Positions 1,924 to 18,951 of a stretch of 35,364 nt of DNA are shown one piece after another; position 1 is the stretch's first letter, and each line of letters starts with the position of its first letter. The stretch is from Erysipelotrichaceae bacterium (GTDB taxonomy: Bacteria > Bacillota_I > Bacilli_A > Erysipelotrichales > Erysipelotrichaceae), in contig JAUNIH010000013.1 in assembly GCA_030523555.1 (NCBI GenBank), positions 1 to 35,364 on the forward strand. Direction: 5' to 3'. The notes beneath the pieces are model-generated. The model was not told the DNA's origin. It saw nothing but the letters and a program-made list of their open reading frames with translations, and made no database searches. A program made the translations under genes and the position numbers.

Positions 1924-1945
1924 AAAAAAACACCTCCATAAACAA

Positions 1946-2019
1946 AAGGTGCCTATCCCTACGCTAGCATTACCTAGATCAGGTTACGGGTATGATCTCA
2001 GCCAATATAGTGGCACCCC
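1946..2019 (-). ncRNA. TPP riboswitch (THI element)
   Basis: The minus strand carries the conserved thi-box in order: GGGGTGCC (P1, 5' side), GGCTGAGATCATACCC, ACCTGATCTAGGTAATGC, AGCGTAGGGA, and GGCACC (P1, 3' side). This is the canonical TPP aptamer. The 3' strand of P1 ends about 8 nt before the thiT Shine-Dalgarno. A second pairing, CACCTT with GAGGTG, would hide the Shine-Dalgarno and is followed by seven Ts. It competes with P1, so the simple reading would be an ON switch, opposite to most TPP switches; the regulatory sign cannot be settled from sequence. Confidence 0.95.
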
Positions 2020-2024
2020 ACAAA

Positions 2025-2903
2025 TCAATTATAATACAGATTATCAAAGATGGTGAAACAATCTTCGTAATGGAAATACTCACGGTTTATCGGTGAACCA
2101 CCCATAGCGTTAGTCAGTATCAGAAGATAGGAATGATAATTGTGCTTGTATAAGAGAACTATACTCTGTCCGGATTCAGGAGTATATCCGGTCTTGCCAC
2201 CTATTACCCACATACCTGTAGTTCCGGCATAGTTTGTGGTTGAATAGACCGTCAGTTTACTGTCTATATAATGATAACGGCTTCCAATAATTTCTCTTCC
2301 CTTTTCAAAAGTCAGAATATCCATCACTACCGTATAGATATCATCAATACAGGTATATAAATCCGGATCGTGCAGACCGGTAGTATTGGTAAAATGTGAA
2401 GACTTCAAACCAAGTTCTGCACATCTTTCATTCACAAGATCAACAAGACTGACATTAAAATTTCTTGTATAGTAATCTTCTATGGCTAAAGCCGCATCCC
2501 CACCCGATGGCAGTATCAGAGCATATAAAAGATCTTCCATCGTATATTCCTGATCAACATATAATCCGGCCAAAGAAGAATCTTCTTCAATGAGCCACAT
2601 GAATTCATCATGATCAATATATGATGTACCAGACAGATCATCAAGAGTATTGAGAACAGTATCAAGCACAAACAGTTTGGCCAAAGATGCAGGATATATG
2701 ACATCACTTGTATTATGTCTGTATAAAACCTCAAAATCAGACATATCCGCCAATAGATAATGATCACTGTGCGTCACAAAATCAAAAGACTTTTCTTCAA
2801 TATCCTTCATGACATTGATATTTTCTGCATTATAAGAAACAGACGTTTTTGAACACGCCGTCAGTAATATACATAATAATAACAATACTATCTTCTTTTT
2901 CAT
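2025..2903 (-). CDS. D-alanyl-D-alanine carboxypeptidase-like lipoprotein
   Basis: This is a serine peptidase of the PBP5/DacF type, expected to trim D-Ala from peptidoglycan stem peptides outside the cell. The 292-residue product begins with a lipoprotein signal ending in the lipobox LTAC (Cys17), so it should be lipid-anchored. Active-site motifs are present in order: SLAK (Ser73, Lys76), SGG (133-135) in place of the usual SxN, and KTG (237-239). It is shorter than classical DacA/DacF proteins and ends soon after KTG, lacking their C-terminal beta domain and amphipathic anchor. Its ATG overlaps the recO stop (TAATG), so it is the last gene of the ybeY-era-recO operon. Confidence 0.88.
   Translation of the reverse strand: MKKKIVLLLLCILLTACSKTSVSYNAENINVMKDIEEKSFDFVTHSDHYLLADMSDFEVLYRHNTSDVIYPASLAKLFVLDTVLNTLDDLSGTSYIDHDEFMWLIEEDSSLAGLYVDQEYTMEDLLYALILPSGGDAALAIEDYYTRNFNVSLVDLVNERCAELGLKSSHFTNTTGLHDPDLYTCIDDIYTVVMDILTFEKGREIIGSRYHYIDSKLTVYSTTNYAGTTGMWVIGGKTGYTPESGQSIVLLYKHNYHSYLLILTNAMGGSPINREYFHYEDCFTIFDNLYYN
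2028..2033 (-). promoter_or_regulatory. Probable -10 box for the TPP riboswitch and thiTN
   Basis: The last two sense codons of the carboxypeptidase gene (TAT AAT, then TGA) form a perfect TATAAT. Initiation 6-8 nt downstream would place +1 right at the 5' edge of the TPP aptamer. No good -35 is seen 16-18 nt upstream, so the promoter is plausible rather than proven. Confidence 0.5.
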
Positions 2904-11100: not shown

Positions 11101-11125
11101 AAATTAAAAAGCGCTTAAAGCGCTA
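11101..11125 (-). terminator. Terminator of the macro-HTH gene
   Basis: AGCGC and GCGCT pair around a 5 nt loop, followed on the minus strand by TTTTTAATTT. The TAG stop of the macro-HTH gene lies at the stem base. Confidence 0.75.
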
Positions 11126-12184
11126 ATGCGATTTACTTCCAAGAGTTACACAGTCGTAATCATAGAGTACTTCATTTATATCAAAGATATTATAGTTTTC
11201 ACTTTCCAGAAAATGACGGACTATCTTATCAAAGGTCATATATCTGCTTAAGGTAAATCCACCTCTGTCTAACATTTCCAGCGATTCATCTATATCGAGT
11301 CTTAGGCCGAAACACAAGGCACAGATTGTTTCCTTCTTTGGTTTATGACGGTCATTCTTGATATCGTTAAAGACACTTTTGGAAAGATTGGCTTTCTTAT
11401 AGACATCAGAATCCTTAAGATTTCTTTCATCTATTATCTTTATAAGATATTCACCAAAGCTTGTATCTTCATCAAAAGGAGAAGGCGCCTGAGGCATCGC
11501 TGCACAGCTGAATTCAACTGTCTCATCTTCAGCGTACGCATCTTCCATTAAAGCAGATACATCAGAATCTTCCTTTTTCTTAGAGAAAAGACTCTCCATT
11601 TTATTGAATACAGAACCCGATTCATATGGTTTACCGATGCTGTATTTAGGGGTGTACTGTTTTTGAGGACGCAGCAGTTCTTCTACTTCTTTAAAGATCT
11701 TCTTATCCGTATTGATTTCGTTCTTGTCATATACCAGAAGATAGATATCCATTTCATTATCTTTAAGGAAATCGATAATGGTTTGACTGGCGATATCAAC
11801 CGCTTCACCCTTAGGGAAATGATATGTACCTGAACTGATTAAAGGAAAAGCGATGGATTCTATACTGTTTTCTTTAGCCAGATTAAGACAGTTTTCATAA
11901 CACATCCTGAGATCTTCCTTCTCATTCTGTTTTCCATCAATATAGACAGGACCGCAGGTATGAATGATATAGTCACAGTTTGTCAAATTAAAGGAAGATG
12001 TCATAACCGCATCAGACAGTTCTATCTTTCCTATCTTTTCACAGATTTCATCCAGTTTTTCTCCGGCTGCTTCATGAATCAGTCTGTCTACTCCGCCAAA
12101 AGCCAGCAGGTATTCATTGCTGGGATTGACGATAGCTTGAGCTTCTACTTCTCTTATATCTTCATTTATTATCTGAAATGGCAT
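11123..12184 (-). CDS. Macro domain fused to a C-terminal helical (HTH-like) domain
   Basis: This protein has 353 residues. Residues 1-175 are a macro domain: IVNPSNEYLLAFGGVDRLI, YIIHTCGPVYIDGKQ and FPLISSGTYHFPKGEA are the ADP-ribose loops. Residues 176-245 are a charged, probably disordered linker. Residues 247-353 resemble a C-terminal module seen in many gut Bacillota proteins attached to varied sensor or enzyme domains; KANLSKSVFNDIKNDRHKPK looks like an XRE-type helix-turn-helix, and ICALCFGLRLDIDESLEML and YNIFDINEVLYDYD follow. This suggests an ADP-ribose-responsive regulator or effector, by inference. TATAAT at 12193-12198 is 8 nt before the ATG and there is no Shine-Dalgarno. Confidence 0.82.
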   Translation of the reverse strand: MPFQIINEDIREVEAQAIVNPSNEYLLAFGGVDRLIHEAAGEKLDEICEKIGKIELSDAVMTSSFNLTNCDYIIHTCGPVYIDGKQNEKEDLRMCYENCLNLAKENSIESIAFPLISSGTYHFPKGEAVDIASQTIIDFLKDNEMDIYLLVYDKNEINTDKKIFKEVEELLRPQKQYTPKYSIGKPYESGSVFNKMESLFSKKKEDSDVSALMEDAYAEDETVEFSCAAMPQAPSPFDEDTSFGEYLIKIIDERNLKDSDVYKKANLSKSVFNDIKNDRHKPKKETICALCFGLRLDIDESLEMLDRGGFTLSRYMTFDKIVRHFLESENYNIFDINEVLYDYDCVTLGSKSH

Positions 12185-12225: not shown

Positions 12226-12883
12226 AATCTTCAACCCAGACTTTTTTATATACCGCATCATGATGAACGACATATGAAGGATGATTTATCGTCTTATATT
12301 CAGGTTCATGGTAGACATAATCATATACAGCCTCATGATACAGAGTATATGAATCCTGCAGAAGGCAATGTGCCTCACCATAGGTGATATTCTGTCCTGA
12401 ATAACTGCCACAGCCATCATTCCAGTCAGCCTCCACATGAGCGTTCATTTCATCGATACTCTCTGTCGTATACCCACACCCGGAACAGATATATCCGAAA
12501 TATGTATCATATCCATATTCCTTGCAGTATTCTATCTCTTCAGAATAGGCTTCACTGATCAGCACTTCCTCTATCCAGGCTTCTTTGACAAGCACCTGTT
12601 CATCATATGATGGTACTGTTTCATCATAGGCAGCTGATACCATTACCGTTTCATAATGTCCTGAAGAAGATGATACATCAGATGGCTTTTCTTCTGTTTC
12701 TGTTATGAGGGGATCAGATTCTTTATTATCTGGAATATCCGTATTTAAAGATGTCTCTTCAGAAGGTATTACTGTATCCTGTATATCTGAATCTGATGGT
12801 TCAGAAGATATATCAGAAGGAAGATAGTAATATGCACAGATACCACAGAGTATAAGAAGAATAAGGATCAGAATCTTCTTCAT
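12224..12883 (-). CDS. Membrane-anchored Cys/His-motif protein of unknown function
   Basis: This 219-residue protein has an N-terminal hydrophobic segment (about residues 4-21) without a clear cleavage site, so it is probably a signal anchor with the rest outside. Residues 23-75 are a Ser/Asp/Glu-rich linker. From 76 on come imperfect repeats of the type HYETVMVSAAYDETV, EQVLVKEAWIEEVL and HDAVYKKVWVED. They flank a small possible metal site: YICSGCGYTT, a His in MNAHVEAD, then DGCGSY (C-x2-C, H, C). Similar repeat-plus-cysteine modules are found in surface proteins of gut Bacillota; no function is known to me. The ATG overlaps the stop of the large surface protein (TAATG). Confidence 0.7.
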   Translation of the reverse strand: MKKILILILLILCGICAYYYLPSDISSEPSDSDIQDTVIPSEETSLNTDIPDNKESDPLITETEEKPSDVSSSSGHYETVMVSAAYDETVPSYDEQVLVKEAWIEEVLISEAYSEEIEYCKEYGYDTYFGYICSGCGYTTESIDEMNAHVEADWNDGCGSYSGQNITYGEAHCLLQDSYTLYHEAVYDYVYHEPEYKTINHPSYVVHHDAVYKKVWVED

Positions 12884-15615
12884 TAATCAACTCCGGTAAC
12901 CGGTGGTTTATATGGAATAATCATGGCGTTGATACGATAGTTTTCAACTCTTGTAAGACTGGTGTCATGTCCGACATCGACGACATAGTTACTCGAATCA
13001 AGATGATAACCCACTGGCGCAATAATCTCTTTGAATGTTATCTTTGTATCTTCAAGCTGTGAATCTAAATAGATAGCGCCTTTTTCTATAACCCATTTTC
13101 TTAAATCGGTTTCCGTATCCATCTTTGCGTAATATGTGCCATCCTGTAGATCGAGGACGATAACACACTGTTTACTGAAACGGGAATCATATGAAGAGGC
13201 ATATATTCCTGCCACCTCACTCATTTCTTCATCACTATATACATATAAAGTAAATGAATCATCAGCTTCGTAATAGATTCCTCCACTCACATATTTTCCA
13301 AGATAGTTTTCGACAAGCGTATTATCTCTTTTTACTCTTCTTGTAGATACATCAAAGAAAGCACCGGACAGTCTTATATCTTTGGATACATTTGATACTT
13401 TATACAGGACAAATTCCGCTTCATATAAAGGAAGAATACGGATACTCTGCCCCATATCAGTAAGATCTTCATGATAGGAAATCAGCTCGTCAGGATTATC
13501 AGCGGCATAAAGATATTCAAAGATCACAAATTCATGATTGGCATACTCATCAAGATTGATCTCATATGAACTAGTCACCATTCCTGTATCATCAGGGGTA
13601 AACAGCGTTTCATATTCAGCAATCACTGAACCTATTGAATAATCAGTCTGTCTTATCGTATCAACATCTTCTTCATTACATAAACCGTTATCAAAATCAT
13701 CTATCGTCCAGTAGGTAATATCGCTTAATCGGTCTATCAGTTTGGTCTTCAATAGATATTCTCTATCACTGTCAAGATTTTCATATACTACAAGATCATC
13801 TATGTGGGCAACACCATCTGCCGGATATTCTTTCTGTCCGTTTTCTTTGACAGTTGCGCTTGTCTTCAGGATGATTACCTTTTCATCCTGAGTCAGCTGT
13901 TCATTTTCAATGGTAAGATTTACGCCACCATTAATCTCCACCAGGACATTAGAATTATCATCCAGATATATTCTTCCCACATATACTTCAGGGTCTCTCA
14001 GATAAGTCTGTGGAGCCTTTGTCTCTTCAATCGTAAAGGTACCCATTGGAATCTTTAAGACACCGTTTGAATCAAAAAGATCAGTCGGTCCGGATACATA
14101 ATGTGCCCTGTCAAATTCCACTACAGCTTCACCGTTTTTGATAATCGGTTTAAAAACCCATGTCAGTTTTGGTGTCAGTGTATCAGTATATGTATAGGTA
14201 TCATAATATCTTAAAGTAAACTCGGCTGTATCCAGATACTTTGTATAACCATTGGGGTTTGAACTTTTCTTGATCAGCTGTACGACAGTCGGATCATCAT
14301 ATGGATCTTCACTGGATACAACTACCTGACTGTTACCTGCCGATAAGATTGCCGTATATATCTTGGGATCAAGCTTAAAACCTTTGGAAGGACTTATTTC
14401 TTTTACATAATATGTTCCGGCACTTAATTCAAGAGGATTACTGCTTCCTGAAGAAGTTGTCGTAAGTGTGGCTACCTGATTTGTACAGCTTAAATCACTG
14501 TATACGCCATATACCGCTCCGGCTAAAGAATACATTCCCGGACAGTTTGATGTGTAGTTAAAAGAGGAGCTTGATTTTTTCTGAACCGTTAATTTTGGAT
14601 TTAAAGGCCAGCAAACCGGATTTGTGCCCAGTCTTTGAATTTCGCCTTCATATCCTGTTGGCGTATAGACATCAATTCTGCAGGCATAAGAACCACCCGT
14701 TGAATAATTTGATGAGTTGGGGTTGGTATCCATACCATCAGAGCTGCTGGCAGAATGATTGGCATAGTTATCAATAGCCGCCTGTATGGCACCTGCCGAC
14801 ATATTGTTGCGTAAACCCATACCGATAATTTCCGCAACCTTATTAGTGTACTGACCGTAATAGTCATATCCTGTTCCGGCTAAAGGCCAGCCGCTCACTT
14901 CCGGTTCTACACACCATGCGGGTTCACCATTAATCGTGTACTGATAGCGCGAATATCCTCCTGTTCCATCATTCCTGACATAAGACCACGCTGAACCAAG
15001 GCCTGAAGTAACTGCTGCCGCCAGTAACATAATCCCATTGGCCGTTTTTTCAAGAGTATACATCCATACACCCTGTACAGTTATGACGCCTGTCGTTACT
15101 TCAAGTACCGGTGTATTCCATCCCAGAAAGACATAATCCTGAAGAGAATCATCAGCCAAAGATGGAGGGTTTGGATAATCATCAGTATTTATCATTTCAT
15201 CTTCAGGTAAAAGATCATATATTTCCTGAGGAAGATATCCTTTACCGTTTGCCCCTGCTTCAACAAATTCATAGTGAACTGTGTACTGAGATACAGTGGT
15301 ATTTTCTTTCGGTTTCCATATACCCTTTACTGTCGTGTCAGCGTCCACGACAAAATCATTGTGATCCCATCCTGTAAAAGTATAGATGAGATCATTTACT
15401 GTTACATCATCAAAAGATGATAAAGAGAGTGTTTCCCCTTTTGTGAAAGAATTAATGGGCTCCGGAAGAAGATCCATTATCTCTTCAGGAAGTTCATCTC
15501 CATTTTCACTTTCAAACACAAAATCAATACTCACATATTCTTCTGCCGTAATGGATTTTATGTTTGAAGACAAGACAACAAAAAAGATCAAAATTACAGA
15601 TAATAATTTTTTCAT
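12883..15615 (-). CDS. Thioester-domain, VaFE/SpaA-repeat surface adhesin
   Basis: The 910-residue protein is secreted (signal peptide about 1-24). Domains in order: two SHIRT-like repeats (about 28-100 and 110-186, each with LP-x(2)-I and a GW core); a thioester domain (about 205-330) with AWCVEP (Cys235) and IQAAI (Gln278) as the likely crosslinking pair; two SpaA/Cna-B-like repeats (about 338-575) with YYVKEISPSKGF and FTIEETKAPQTY; a VaFE repeat (about 580-725) with HIDDLVVYENL and FVIFEYLY...SYHEDLTDMGQ; and a last SpaA-like domain ending VKEII-type TFKEIIAPVGYHL. Such proteins bind host surfaces covalently and tip pili. It ends PYKPPVTGVD, with no membrane anchor. A strong hairpin precedes the ATG. 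Confidence 0.85.
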   Translation of the reverse strand: MKKLLSVILIFFVVLSSNIKSITAEEYVSIDFVFESENGDELPEEIMDLLPEPINSFTKGETLSLSSFDDVTVNDLIYTFTGWDHNDFVVDADTTVKGIWKPKENTTVSQYTVHYEFVEAGANGKGYLPQEIYDLLPEDEMINTDDYPNPPSLADDSLQDYVFLGWNTPVLEVTTGVITVQGVWMYTLEKTANGIMLLAAAVTSGLGSAWSYVRNDGTGGYSRYQYTINGEPAWCVEPEVSGWPLAGTGYDYYGQYTNKVAEIIGMGLRNNMSAGAIQAAIDNYANHSASSSDGMDTNPNSSNYSTGGSYACRIDVYTPTGYEGEIQRLGTNPVCWPLNPKLTVQKKSSSSFNYTSNCPGMYSLAGAVYGVYSDLSCTNQVATLTTTSSGSSNPLELSAGTYYVKEISPSKGFKLDPKIYTAILSAGNSQVVVSSEDPYDDPTVVQLIKKSSNPNGYTKYLDTAEFTLRYYDTYTYTDTLTPKLTWVFKPIIKNGEAVVEFDRAHYVSGPTDLFDSNGVLKIPMGTFTIEETKAPQTYLRDPEVYVGRIYLDDNSNVLVEINGGVNLTIENEQLTQDEKVIILKTSATVKENGQKEYPADGVAHIDDLVVYENLDSDREYLLKTKLIDRLSDITYWTIDDFDNGLCNEEDVDTIRQTDYSIGSVIAEYETLFTPDDTGMVTSSYEINLDEYANHEFVIFEYLYAADNPDELISYHEDLTDMGQSIRILPLYEAEFVLYKVSNVSKDIRLSGAFFDVSTRRVKRDNTLVENYLGKYVSGGIYYEADDSFTLYVYSDEEMSEVAGIYASSYDSRFSKQCVIVLDLQDGTYYAKMDTETDLRKWVIEKGAIYLDSQLEDTKITFKEIIAPVGYHLDSSNYVVDVGHDTSLTRVENYRINAMIIPYKPPVTGVD

Positions 15616-15672: not shown

Positions 15673-16818
15673 TTATTTTTGTAAAATTCTAACTTTTATG
15701 ACATTTTCTATTTTTTCAAAGAGTTCAGGATCTATAGGATCGTTTGTATCAATGATTGTATAGGCATAATCTTTCCTGGCCTTATTGGACATATTTTCAA
15801 TATTTATATGATTATTGGCAATTAATGTCGCAAACTGTGCCAGCATATTCGGAACGTTCATATGAATGATGCAGACACGGATCTTTGTGTTCCAGGCTTC
15901 GGAAATATCAGGCATATTGACAGAATTGACGATATTACCGTTCTCAAGATAATCCATGATTTCGTGAACTGCCATAACTGCACAGTTTTCTTCAGATTCA
16001 GCAGTTGAAGCACCCAAATGAGGAAGACAGATGACATTATCCAGTTTACATAAAGCCTGAGAACCAAAGTCAGTAATATAGTTTTCTACCTTACCGTTAC
16101 TTAAAGCTTCTATAAGATCTTCTTCCTTGACAAGATCACCTCGCGCAAAATTTAAGATCTTTACGCCATCCTTCATCTTATCTATAGTTTCTTTATTGAT
16201 GAAACCTTTGGTTGTTTCTAAAGATGGAATATGAATAGTCAGATAATCGACTTCCTTCAACAGTTCATCAAGCTTATCGACATGTTTGACCTGATGATTG
16301 AGATTCCAGGCTGCCTGAATAGAGATATACGGATCATAACCATAGACGTCCATACCCAGATCCAGTGCTGCATTGGCGACATTGGCACCGATGGCACCTA
16401 AACCGATAACACCAAGTTTCTTACGGTATAATTCATGTCCCGCAAAAGCTGATTTACCTTTTTCGACGGTTTTGGAGAAGTTTTCTTCAACGGTCCTGGC
16501 CCATTCATAGCCCTGAATGATTTTTCTTGAAGTAAGTAGAAGTCCACATATCGTCAGTTCCTTTACGGCATTGGCGTTGGCACCAGGTGTATTGAAAACG
16601 ACAATACCCTTTTTGGCACATTCATCTACCGGAATATTGTTGACACCGGCGCCGGCTCTCGCGATGGCCTTGAGGTTAGCTGGAAATTCTGTTTCCAATA
16701 GATTGGCACTGCGGACGAGAATTCCATCTTCGTCAGTGACATCTTCACCGACAGTATATTTTTCATCAAACTGTTTAAGACCTATCTGGTCGATTTTATT
16801 GTAAAGTTTTATTTTCAT
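15673..16818 (-). CDS. serA: D-3-phosphoglycerate dehydrogenase
   Basis: This 381-residue NAD-dependent dehydrogenase oxidises 3-phosphoglycerate to 3-phosphohydroxypyruvate, the first step of serine synthesis. The Rossmann motif LGVIGLGAIGANVANAA lies near residue 140. NFARGDLV carries the substrate Arg, and CLPHLGASTAESEENCA the catalytic His and the family signature. The C-terminal 80 residues form a short ACT domain (NIENMSNKARKDYAYTIIDT), which may mediate serine feedback. Length fits the short ACT-type SerA. Its ATG overlaps the serC stop by 1 nt (TAATG), and it is the last gene of the serine operon. Confidence 0.97.
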   Translation of the reverse strand: MKIKLYNKIDQIGLKQFDEKYTVGEDVTDEDGILVRSANLLETEFPANLKAIARAGAGVNNIPVDECAKKGIVVFNTPGANANAVKELTICGLLLTSRKIIQGYEWARTVEENFSKTVEKGKSAFAGHELYRKKLGVIGLGAIGANVANAALDLGMDVYGYDPYISIQAAWNLNHQVKHVDKLDELLKEVDYLTIHIPSLETTKGFINKETIDKMKDGVKILNFARGDLVKEEDLIEALSNGKVENYITDFGSQALCKLDNVICLPHLGASTAESEENCAVMAVHEIMDYLENGNIVNSVNMPDISEAWNTKIRVCIIHMNVPNMLAQFATLIANNHINIENMSNKARKDYAYTIIDTNDPIDPELFEKIENVIKVRILQK

Positions 16819-17897
16819 TATCTGTTTTCCTCTTCAAATTTCTTCATGAAGGCTGCCAGTTTTTCAATACCTTCCAGTTCCATGGCATTATAGATAGAAG
16901 CTCTGATACCACCTACAGAACGATGGCCCTTGAGACTTTCCATACCTTCTTTCTTGGCTTCCGCAACAAACTTGGCTTCAAGTTCTTCAGTAGGCAGATT
17001 GAAGGTCACATTCATCATTGAACGGCTGTCCTTATCCGCATGTCCGATATAGAAATCAGAATTATCCAGAATATCATAGAGTATCTTGGCCTTTTCCTTA
17101 TTGCGTTTTTCCATAGCCTCTAAACCACCCAGTTTTTTGATCCACTTGGCAACTAGACCCAAAACATAAATCGCAAAAGTATTTGGGGTATTGTACATGG
17201 AATCACCGTTTACCTGGGTATCATATTCCATCAGTACCGGCATATTTTCTCTGTGTTTACCAATTAAGTCCTTACGTACAATGACAAATGACAGACCGGC
17301 AATACCCATATTCTTCTGACATCCGGCATAGATCAGACCAAACTTTGAGACATCAATCTTCTTTGAACAGATATCACTGGACATATCCGCAACAAGTGGA
17401 ATATCACCGGTATCAGGATAATCCTGATATTCAGTACCATAGATGGTATTGTTGGCACAGATATAGACATAGTCTGCATCTTTTCTTAAATTGAGTTCAT
17501 CCTGCTTAGGAATTCGTTTATAGTCAGGTCCGACATCACAGGCGATATTCACATCCACAAACTTCGCCGCTTCTTTGGCAGCCTTCTTCGCAAATGATCC
17601 GGTCACAATATAATCAGCTTTGGCATTTGGTGCCAGATTTAGTGGAATAGCTGAGAACTGTTCGGTAGCTCCACCCTGCATAAAGATGATTTCATAGTTG
17701 TCAGGAATATTCATTACTTCCTTGATTGTCGCCTTTGTTTCTTCGAAGATCTTGAGATAGGTCTTTGATCGATGAGACATCTCCATGACAGACATGCCTG
17801 TTCCCTGATAATTGAAGAGATCCTTACTTATTTCTTCAAGTACATCTAAACTTAACTGAGATGGCCCTGCGGCAAAATTGTAGACACGGTTATACAT
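16818..17897 (-). CDS. serC: Phosphoserine aminotransferase
   Basis: This 359-residue PLP enzyme converts phosphohydroxypyruvate and glutamate to O-phosphoserine. The family start NFAAGPSQLSLDVLEEI is intact, EIIFMQGGATEQFSAIP is the phosphate-binding loop, and YAGCQKNMGIAG contains the PLP lysine. The C-terminal GHRSVGGIRASIYNA is the substrate-phosphate Arg segment. It overlaps the PHP phosphatase gene by 8 nt and has a GGAG Shine-Dalgarno within that gene's end, so the three serine genes form one unit. Confidence 0.98.
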   Translation of the reverse strand: MYNRVYNFAAGPSQLSLDVLEEISKDLFNYQGTGMSVMEMSHRSKTYLKIFEETKATIKEVMNIPDNYEIIFMQGGATEQFSAIPLNLAPNAKADYIVTGSFAKKAAKEAAKFVDVNIACDVGPDYKRIPKQDELNLRKDADYVYICANNTIYGTEYQDYPDTGDIPLVADMSSDICSKKIDVSKFGLIYAGCQKNMGIAGLSFVIVRKDLIGKHRENMPVLMEYDTQVNGDSMYNTPNTFAIYVLGLVAKWIKKLGGLEAMEKRNKEKAKILYDILDNSDFYIGHADKDSRSMMNVTFNLPTEELEAKFVAEAKKEGMESLKGHRSVGGIRASIYNAMELEGIEKLAAFMKKFEEENR

Positions 17898-18714
17898 TTG
17901 TTTTCTCCTTCATTTTTATAATTCTTTCATTAGCTTCTTTTATATATGAACCAACATCTTCAGGCTTATGCGCATCCGATGCGGTAATTATTTCTATATC
18001 TTCTTCGATAAATATCTTTAAGAGTTCATCCGATAGTCCGATATCCTTATGATCATAACGGTAATGACATCCGGTATTGCATTCAGCTTTCATCTTCTTC
18101 TCTTTAAGTTTTTTTGATAAGAGATGGTATGTATCATTAAGATCATAATCAGGATAGATATCAAACATCTTGATGGTATCAGGATGCGCGAGCTGAGTGA
18201 AGATATTACTGTCTACCACTTTCATCAGAAGATCATAATATCTTTCATAGATGTGATTGGCGTCGTAGACATCCCATAAGAGTTCTTTAGAGAATGACAT
18301 ATCGTAGAGTATTCCATCTATCGAATGAATGGCTCCTACCAGGAAATCAAATTCATAATCCTTAACTACATTCCTGATAAACTCTTCACTCTCCGGTGTG
18401 TAACATATCTCCAGTCCATACTTTACTCTGATTCCAAGATCCATTTCCTGAATCTTCTTCATCAGTTCTATATAGTCTTTAAGATGATCCTTGAATTTCA
18501 TCTTCCTGTTTTCAAGCCAGACTTTCTGAACTTCATATTTCTTTAATGGTTCATACATTTCTTCAAACTCGATAAATCTGTGTGTATGATCAAGAATCTG
18601 TATTTCACTTAAACCTTTTTTCCTGGCAGCTTCGACAAATTCCAGAACATATTCTTTATTTAACGGCCCGTACTCAAGATGCATATGACCATCAATCAGA
18701 TAAGGACTACTCAT
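17890..18714 (-). CDS. PHP-family phosphatase (HisK-like), candidate phosphoserine phosphatase
   Basis: The product has 274 residues and resembles histidinol-phosphatases of the PHP superfamily. All metal-binding motifs are present: DGHMHLEYG, LDHTHRF, GLEICY, GAIHSID, LAHPD and ASDAHKPEDVG, so it should be an active trinuclear-metal phosphatase. No histidine gene is nearby. Instead it heads the serC-serA operon, exactly where the missing third enzyme of serine synthesis would be useful, so phosphoserine phosphatase is a good inference. The start at 18714 is chosen because AAAGGGGG lies 4 nt upstream; an in-frame Met at 18747 falls inside the leader terminator. Confidence 0.82.
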   Translation of the reverse strand: MSSPYLIDGHMHLEYGPLNKEYVLEFVEAARKKGLSEIQILDHTHRFIEFEEMYEPLKKYEVQKVWLENRKMKFKDHLKDYIELMKKIQEMDLGIRVKYGLEICYTPESEEFIRNVVKDYEFDFLVGAIHSIDGILYDMSFSKELLWDVYDANHIYERYYDLLMKVVDSNIFTQLAHPDTIKMFDIYPDYDLNDTYHLLSKKLKEKKMKAECNTGCHYRYDHKDIGLSDELLKIFIEEDIEIITASDAHKPEDVGSYIKEANERIIKMKEKTNV

Positions 18715-18726
18715 GTTTCCCCCTTT

Positions 18727-18757
18727 CAAAACAAAAGCCCTGAACATTCAGGGCCTT
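18727..18757 (-). terminator. Terminator hairpin in the leader of the serine operon
   Basis: On the minus strand GCCCTGA and TCAGGGC form a 7 bp GC-rich stem with a 4 nt loop, followed by TTTTGTTTT. Further A-U/G-U pairs (AAG with TTT) extend it. It lies only 13 nt before the PHP gene start codon and so can switch the whole operon off. Confidence 0.85.
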
Positions 18758-18921
18758 AATATCAGTTTAAATAAAAAACAAACAAATATCCTTTGCCCCT
18801 ATATAAACCTTTCTTTTCTGGAGGACGAACGTCTGTTCATGTTTTTCATATACCTTAATCCTATAGGTGATTTAGAGATGTTTCAACCGCATATCAGTAC
18901 TTTCTGAATATTTTTAAGGTA
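18754..18921 (-). ncRNA. Candidate structured leader RNA or riboswitch of the serine operon
   Basis: On the minus strand CCTTAAAAATATTCAG (18904-18919) can pair with CTGATATTAAGG (18754-18765), closing a domain of about 165 nt. Inside, CCTATA can pair with TATAGG, and a GACG-TT-CGTC hairpin is visible. The closing strand touches the 5' arm of the following terminator, the arrangement of a riboswitch with an expression platform. I found no T-box sequence and did not recognise a known riboswitch class. A separate sRNA (such as a 6S-like RNA, which also has pairing ends) is the alternative. Confidence 0.4.
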
Positions 18922-18951
18922 TTTTTACATAATTGCTGAAAAAGTTTTCAA
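18922..18951 (-). promoter_or_regulatory. Possible promoter of the serine leader
   Basis: On the minus strand TTGAAA (18946-18951) is followed after 18 nt by TAAAAA (18922-18927). The -10 is poor; TATGTA a few bases upstream is an alternative with a short spacer. The site lies just beyond the gapA terminator, where a new promoter is expected. Confidence 0.4.

Follow-up and report, generated by a model that had tools for sequence, protein, structure and literature searches.

The window analyzed here is the whole stretch of 35,364 nucleotides from an Erysipelotrichaceae genome (contig JAUNIH010000013.1), and its serine locus lies on the minus strand. Reading along that strand, gapA and its terminator are followed by about 240 nt, and then by a PHP-serC-serA operon. 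The boundary of the region and the genes of the operon are the following.

18977-18958, minus strand: terminator of gapA, found by the terminator scan; upstream boundary, outside the switch.
17890-18714, minus strand: PHP-domain (HisJ-like) protein, first gene of the operon, with its start codon at 18714.
16818-17897, minus strand: serC, phosphoserine transaminase (NCBIfam TIGR01364, 517 bits, above the cut-off).
15673-16818, minus strand: serA, phosphoglycerate dehydrogenase.

No match to the SerB model TIGR00338 above the cut-off was present in any genome of the genus, and thus the HisJ-like PHP phosphatase encoded beside serC and serA is a candidate phosphoserine phosphatase. An N-terminal extension of about 71-115 residues is present in the PHP protein of several other species of the family (loci L117-L122 and L124-L126). 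Directly downstream of serA, the minus strand encodes a large surface protein with SHIRT, SpaA and T-Q ester bond domains (12883-15615), a probable adhesin, and further on a protein combining a Macro domain with a Cro/C1-type HTH domain (11123-12184). The Rfam scan of the window returned one TPP riboswitch and two tRNAs, all outside the serine leader; the TPP riboswitch (1939-2030, minus strand, 62.6 bits, above the gathering score) is an ordinary member of its family.

A sequence-only reading of this DNA had taken the whole stretch between the gapA terminator and the operon for a structured leader and a candidate riboswitch. The two terminators on which it relied were both recovered, namely that of gapA upstream and a strong one ending about 13 nt before the first gene. 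The features that we assign to the leader are the following.

18886-18858, minus strand: likely promoter, TTGAAA (18886-18881), 17 nt, TAGGAT (18863-18858), assigned from the same placement in three species.
18849-18799, minus strand: leader peptide ORF of 16 codons, MKNMNRRSSSRKERFI with stop codon TAG, read from the sequence and from its counterparts in G008 and G020.
18828-18820, minus strand: putative sensor codons 8-10, TCG TCC TCC (Ser-Ser-Ser), with TC invariant and varying third bases.
18849-18771, minus strand: predicted 1:2 hairpin of the ribosome-free leader, from the fold of the window leader only.
18799-18779, minus strand: region 2, 5' strand of the predicted antiterminator, with core GGGC at 18798-18795, pairing with region 3 in the modelled stalled state (P 0.85-1.00 with the ribosome at the Ser codons).
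18768-18750, minus strand: region 3, 3' strand of the predicted antiterminator, with core GCCC, overlapping the 5' arm of the terminator (from folding).
18757-18734, minus strand, with a U-tract to about 18727: intrinsic terminator (regions 3 and 4), from the terminator scan and folding.

The 16-codon ORF with its three consecutive Ser codons had been overlooked in the sequence-only reading. Counterparts lie at the same place in two species of the same genus, G008 (MRFTHSCSSSCKKIIRAK, then a stop codon) and G020 (MFKINLSSSSRLIFNSRAM, then a stop codon), whose SerC proteins are the most similar (71% identical) and which share the three-gene operon. An ungapped alignment of the three leaders runs from the ATG to nt 39. 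At codons 8-10 the T and C are invariant in all three leaders, and at the third position of each codon the window differs from its relatives (TCG/TCC, TCC/TCA and TCC/TCA, respectively), the codons of G008 and G020 being identical to each other. The codons preceding the Ser run have mostly diverged, and the peptides are unlike outside it (KNMNRR, RFTHSC and FKINLS). Taken together, the invariant TC, the changing third bases and the diverged upstream codons point to selection acting on the encoded serine and not on an RNA helix. Of the dinucleotide shuffles for the window, G008 and G020, 0.25%, 1.1% and 0.26%, respectively, contained a short ORF with a run of three Ser codons; the product of these rates, about 7e-8, assumes independence of the species, an assumption that is not fully valid for relatives. 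What has been kept among species with 71% identical SerC is thus the short ORF with Ser-Ser-Ser, the GGGC segment and the terminator.

A promoter-like arrangement precedes the ORF at the same place in the three species (TTGAAA-17-TAGGAT in the window, TTGACA-17-TACTAT in G008 and TTGCAA-17-TATACT in G020, consensus TTGNNN-17-TANNNT), with 8, 6 and 6 nt, respectively, between the -10 box and the ATG of the leader. Promoter-like matches occur at chance level across the region, and the shared placement is a post hoc observation. If this promoter is right, the RNA would start at about 18851-18849. With such a start, 6-7 nt past the -10 box, the leader ORF would have little or no untranslated sequence ahead of it. 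Also, no clear Shine-Dalgarno sequence precedes the leader ATG in G008 and G020, and therefore a leaderless start must be assumed; the leader transcript is probably leaderless. With the same promoter, transcription of the leader would begin only after the DNA from 18951 to about 18851, so that about 100 nt of the structure proposed by the sequence-only reading would lie upstream of the likely promoter.

The segment 18713-18957 folded no better than its shuffles (z -1.2, with 24 of 200 shuffles as good), which speaks against the whole stretch as a structured leader; for 18730-18860 alone, z was -2.6 and 2 of 200 shuffles were as good. The U-tract of the terminator ends about 13 nt upstream of the PHP start codon, and a terminator of the same place and design is found in G008 and G020. 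The serine leader matched no Rfam family at the gathering score, and at E<=10 the matches were at chance level only; this agrees with the earlier statement that it holds no T-box and no known aptamer class. In particular, the T-box model (RF00230) was without match at the gathering score or at E<=10, and the covariance model of the serC element RF00517 was without match at E<=10. The proposed check against 6S RNA likewise returned no 6S model and no other known class. An inverted repeat formed by ATACCTTAA (from 18922) and TTAAGGTAT (from 18858) is the sole one of 9 bp in the stretch; we rejected it as an operator or switch, as 28% of shuffles would be expected to have one.

A competing pairing on the terminator arm had been proposed as well. 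The 5' arm of the terminator is indeed contested, but its partner differs from the 5' part named in the sequence-only reading: it is region 2, with the GGGC core. MAFFT alignments of the leaders were too poor for formal pair counts, and the pairings were therefore compared species by species. Counted from the ATG, the last base of the Ser run is nt 30 in all three leaders; GGGC begins at nt 52, 47 and 50 (window, G008 and G020, the order kept hereafter), 16-21 nt past the Ser run, and the terminator GCCC lies at nt 96, 96 and 90. The stop codon starts at nt 49, 55 and 58, at GGGC in each leader, so that a ribosome finishing the peptide would hide GGGC. With region 4 not yet made, the GGGC:GCCC antiterminator was predicted at -14.9, -12.9 and -10.0 kcal/mol, above which the sequence of the stem differs between species. 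It was better than shuffles in the window and G008 (p 0.021 and 0.003) and weakly so in G020 (p 0.098). The 1:2 hairpin predicted for the ribosome-free window leader was absent in the same form from the leaders of the relatives.

A ribosome was then modelled codon by codon along each leader, under the assumption of a 15-nt mask that begins at the first base of the codon in the A site. The modelled probability of 2:3 pairing was 0.84-1.00 up to codon 13, 11 and 12 and 0.00 thereafter, including with the ribosome at the stop codon. Judged by the loss of this pairing, each leader would switch 1-3 codons beyond the Ser run. In these models, the antiterminator excludes the terminator, and its 5' strand is free with the ribosome stalled at the Ser codons and hidden once the stop codon is reached. 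The terminator is favored at equilibrium in the window and in G008; the switch there must then be kinetic, and the decision in these two leaders would resemble that of classical attenuators in this respect.

The upstream regions of relatives were found by SerC searches of related genomes and by a PHP protein search of the genus. The Ser-run ORF and terminator occur in this layout at 3 of 147 serC loci of the family and order (the window, G008 and G020) and at none of 23 further serC loci in a class-wide sample. A pattern search for the Ser run plus GGGCAA through the genus returned the three known leaders, its other matches being judged by letters only. The scan of genome contigs added another leader, with the same sequence as that of G008, in an Erysipelotrichaceae metagenome-assembled genome (L110), and the plasmid collection was without match. 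A DNA search of 101 genomes with the leader found, besides itself, only chance matches of 24-35 nt, and no conserved aptamer core. The other members of the genus with serC showed no convincing Ser ORF plus terminator upstream. One of them, G025, has a T-box upstream of serC (L008, 1288-1467; 76.7 bits, E 5.6e-17, below the gathering score of 93), in whose alignment the specifier region shows GAA followed by the serine codon UCC, a candidate specifier. T-boxes are common in the genus, with 14 matches in the genome of the window. Ahead of the serine genes, this genus has the putative attenuator in three species, a T-box in one, and otherwise neither. A different stretch, GGTAGAGATACCTA...GTCTCC...GAGTGAGG, was observed at about 1150-1360 of L128 (G109, Breznakia-like), with similar letters in L136 (G110); it is placed between PHP and serC genes of divergent orientation, and a hairpin resembling a terminator closes it on the serC strand. 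It has no Rfam match up to E 0.5 and is possibly a small RNA.

As most serC loci of the family are without any leader, the arrangement might be an ordinary constitutive or partial terminator next to a chance short ORF, with the operon controlled elsewhere, by a repressor at the promoter or not at all. Three other loci (L054, L188 and L245) indeed pass a loose filter for a Ser ORF plus terminator by chance; however, these have GTG or TTG starts and an unrelated layout, and one layout in three species with varying third bases of the Ser codons is hard to obtain by chance. We consider this explanation improbable. It is slightly less probable still that the leader peptide is real and acts otherwise than through charged tRNA-Ser, by a nascent-peptide or antibiotic stall or by translational coupling. 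Such leaders are known in Bacillota, for example the uORFs before hflX (PMC8632094), and a stall of any kind near codons 8-12 would suit the layout, but the peptides are not conserved outside the Ser run and the operon makes serine. The least probable explanation is a metabolite-binding riboswitch for serine, phosphoserine, glycine or 3-phosphoglycerate, whose aptamer would control the terminator: a terminator with a competing pairing does stand ahead of a biosynthetic operon, and the lack of a known class in Rfam does not exclude a new one, but the relatives share Ser codons, GGGC and terminator without any conserved aptamer-like sequence, the upstream half is probably untranscribed, the fold of the full stretch is no better than that of its shuffles, and the conserved Ser-coding ORF would be left unexplained. 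Thus, from the serine-operon switch first proposed, a terminator switch without a T-box stands, whereas the ligand-binding riboswitch does not, the DNA search having found no conserved aptamer core in relatives.

Ribosome-mediated attenuation is a classical mechanism. We are confident, though short of certain, that the element is a transcription attenuator of this trp/his type specific for serine, which is most likely a new amino-acid specificity of a known mechanism. The promoter at 18886-18858 would start the transcript at or next to the ATG of the 16-codon leader ORF. When charged tRNA-Ser is scarce, the ribosome would stall at codons 8-10 (UCG UCC UCC), leaving region 2 (GGGC, 21 nt downstream) free to pair with region 3 (GCCC) as the antiterminator, and the polymerase would read on into PHP-serC-serA. 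With ample serine, the ribosome would reach the stop codon that abuts GGGC and cover region 2, so that region 3 would pair with region 4 and the terminator would halt transcription before the first gene. Without a ribosome on the leader, the predicted 1:2 hairpin would permit termination, as judged from the fold of the window leader. Counting against this attenuator, just three distinct sequences carry the arrangement, all of one genus; the weak advantage of the G020 antiterminator over shuffles, the kinetic switch required in the window and G008, the assumed 15-nt mask and the lack of a clear ribosome-binding site in G008 and G020 count against it as well.

Other elements sense amino acids or precede serine genes. 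Attenuators with His leaders, with 3-5 His codons in a row, have been predicted in Erysipelotrichales, Peptostreptococcaceae and the Bacillus cereus group (PMC9413887). They share with the present leader a short ORF with at least three cognate codons, followed by mutually exclusive antiterminator and terminator, and those of Erysipelotrichales belong to the same bacterial order; the present one differs by its serine codons, its operon and its apparently leaderless start, and the likeness considered here is one of design. Attenuators with uORFs were also predicted for Cys- and Phe-related genes in other groups (PMC8632094). In B. subtilis, ribosomes slow at TCN codons upon serine starvation, and the sinR sensor built on this slowing (PMC3862929) resembles the present case in its use of TCN serine codons, but it acts on elongation through a full-length gene, without leader peptide or attenuator. 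The T-box (RF00230), found before serC in G025, also senses an amino acid via tRNA and acts on a terminator; it binds tRNA directly, whereas the window leader has neither T-box sequence nor structure. The alpha-proteobacterial serC element RF00517 also lies upstream of serC-serA, as two short stems thought to hide the ribosome-binding site (PMC1273637), but no terminator or leader peptide is described for it, and the window leader has no match to it.

No serine leader-peptide attenuator was found in the open literature; since most subscription papers fall outside the literature searched, the novelty of the serine specificity is provisional. That this is the first serine-specific ribosome-mediated attenuator, with a leaderless peptide in Bacillota, tuned to TCN codons and replacing a T-box within one genus, is a proposition to which we give even chances. 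If true, serine would join the amino acids under leader-peptide attenuation, in a group where T-boxes dominate, and the genus would offer a natural case of one RNA control replacing another. The leader would also be a simple and directly testable sensor of charged tRNA-Ser, in which the two serine codon boxes permit a comparison of TCN with AGY. Finally, it would illustrate that a leader peptide may be mistaken for a riboswitch when RNA folding alone is considered.
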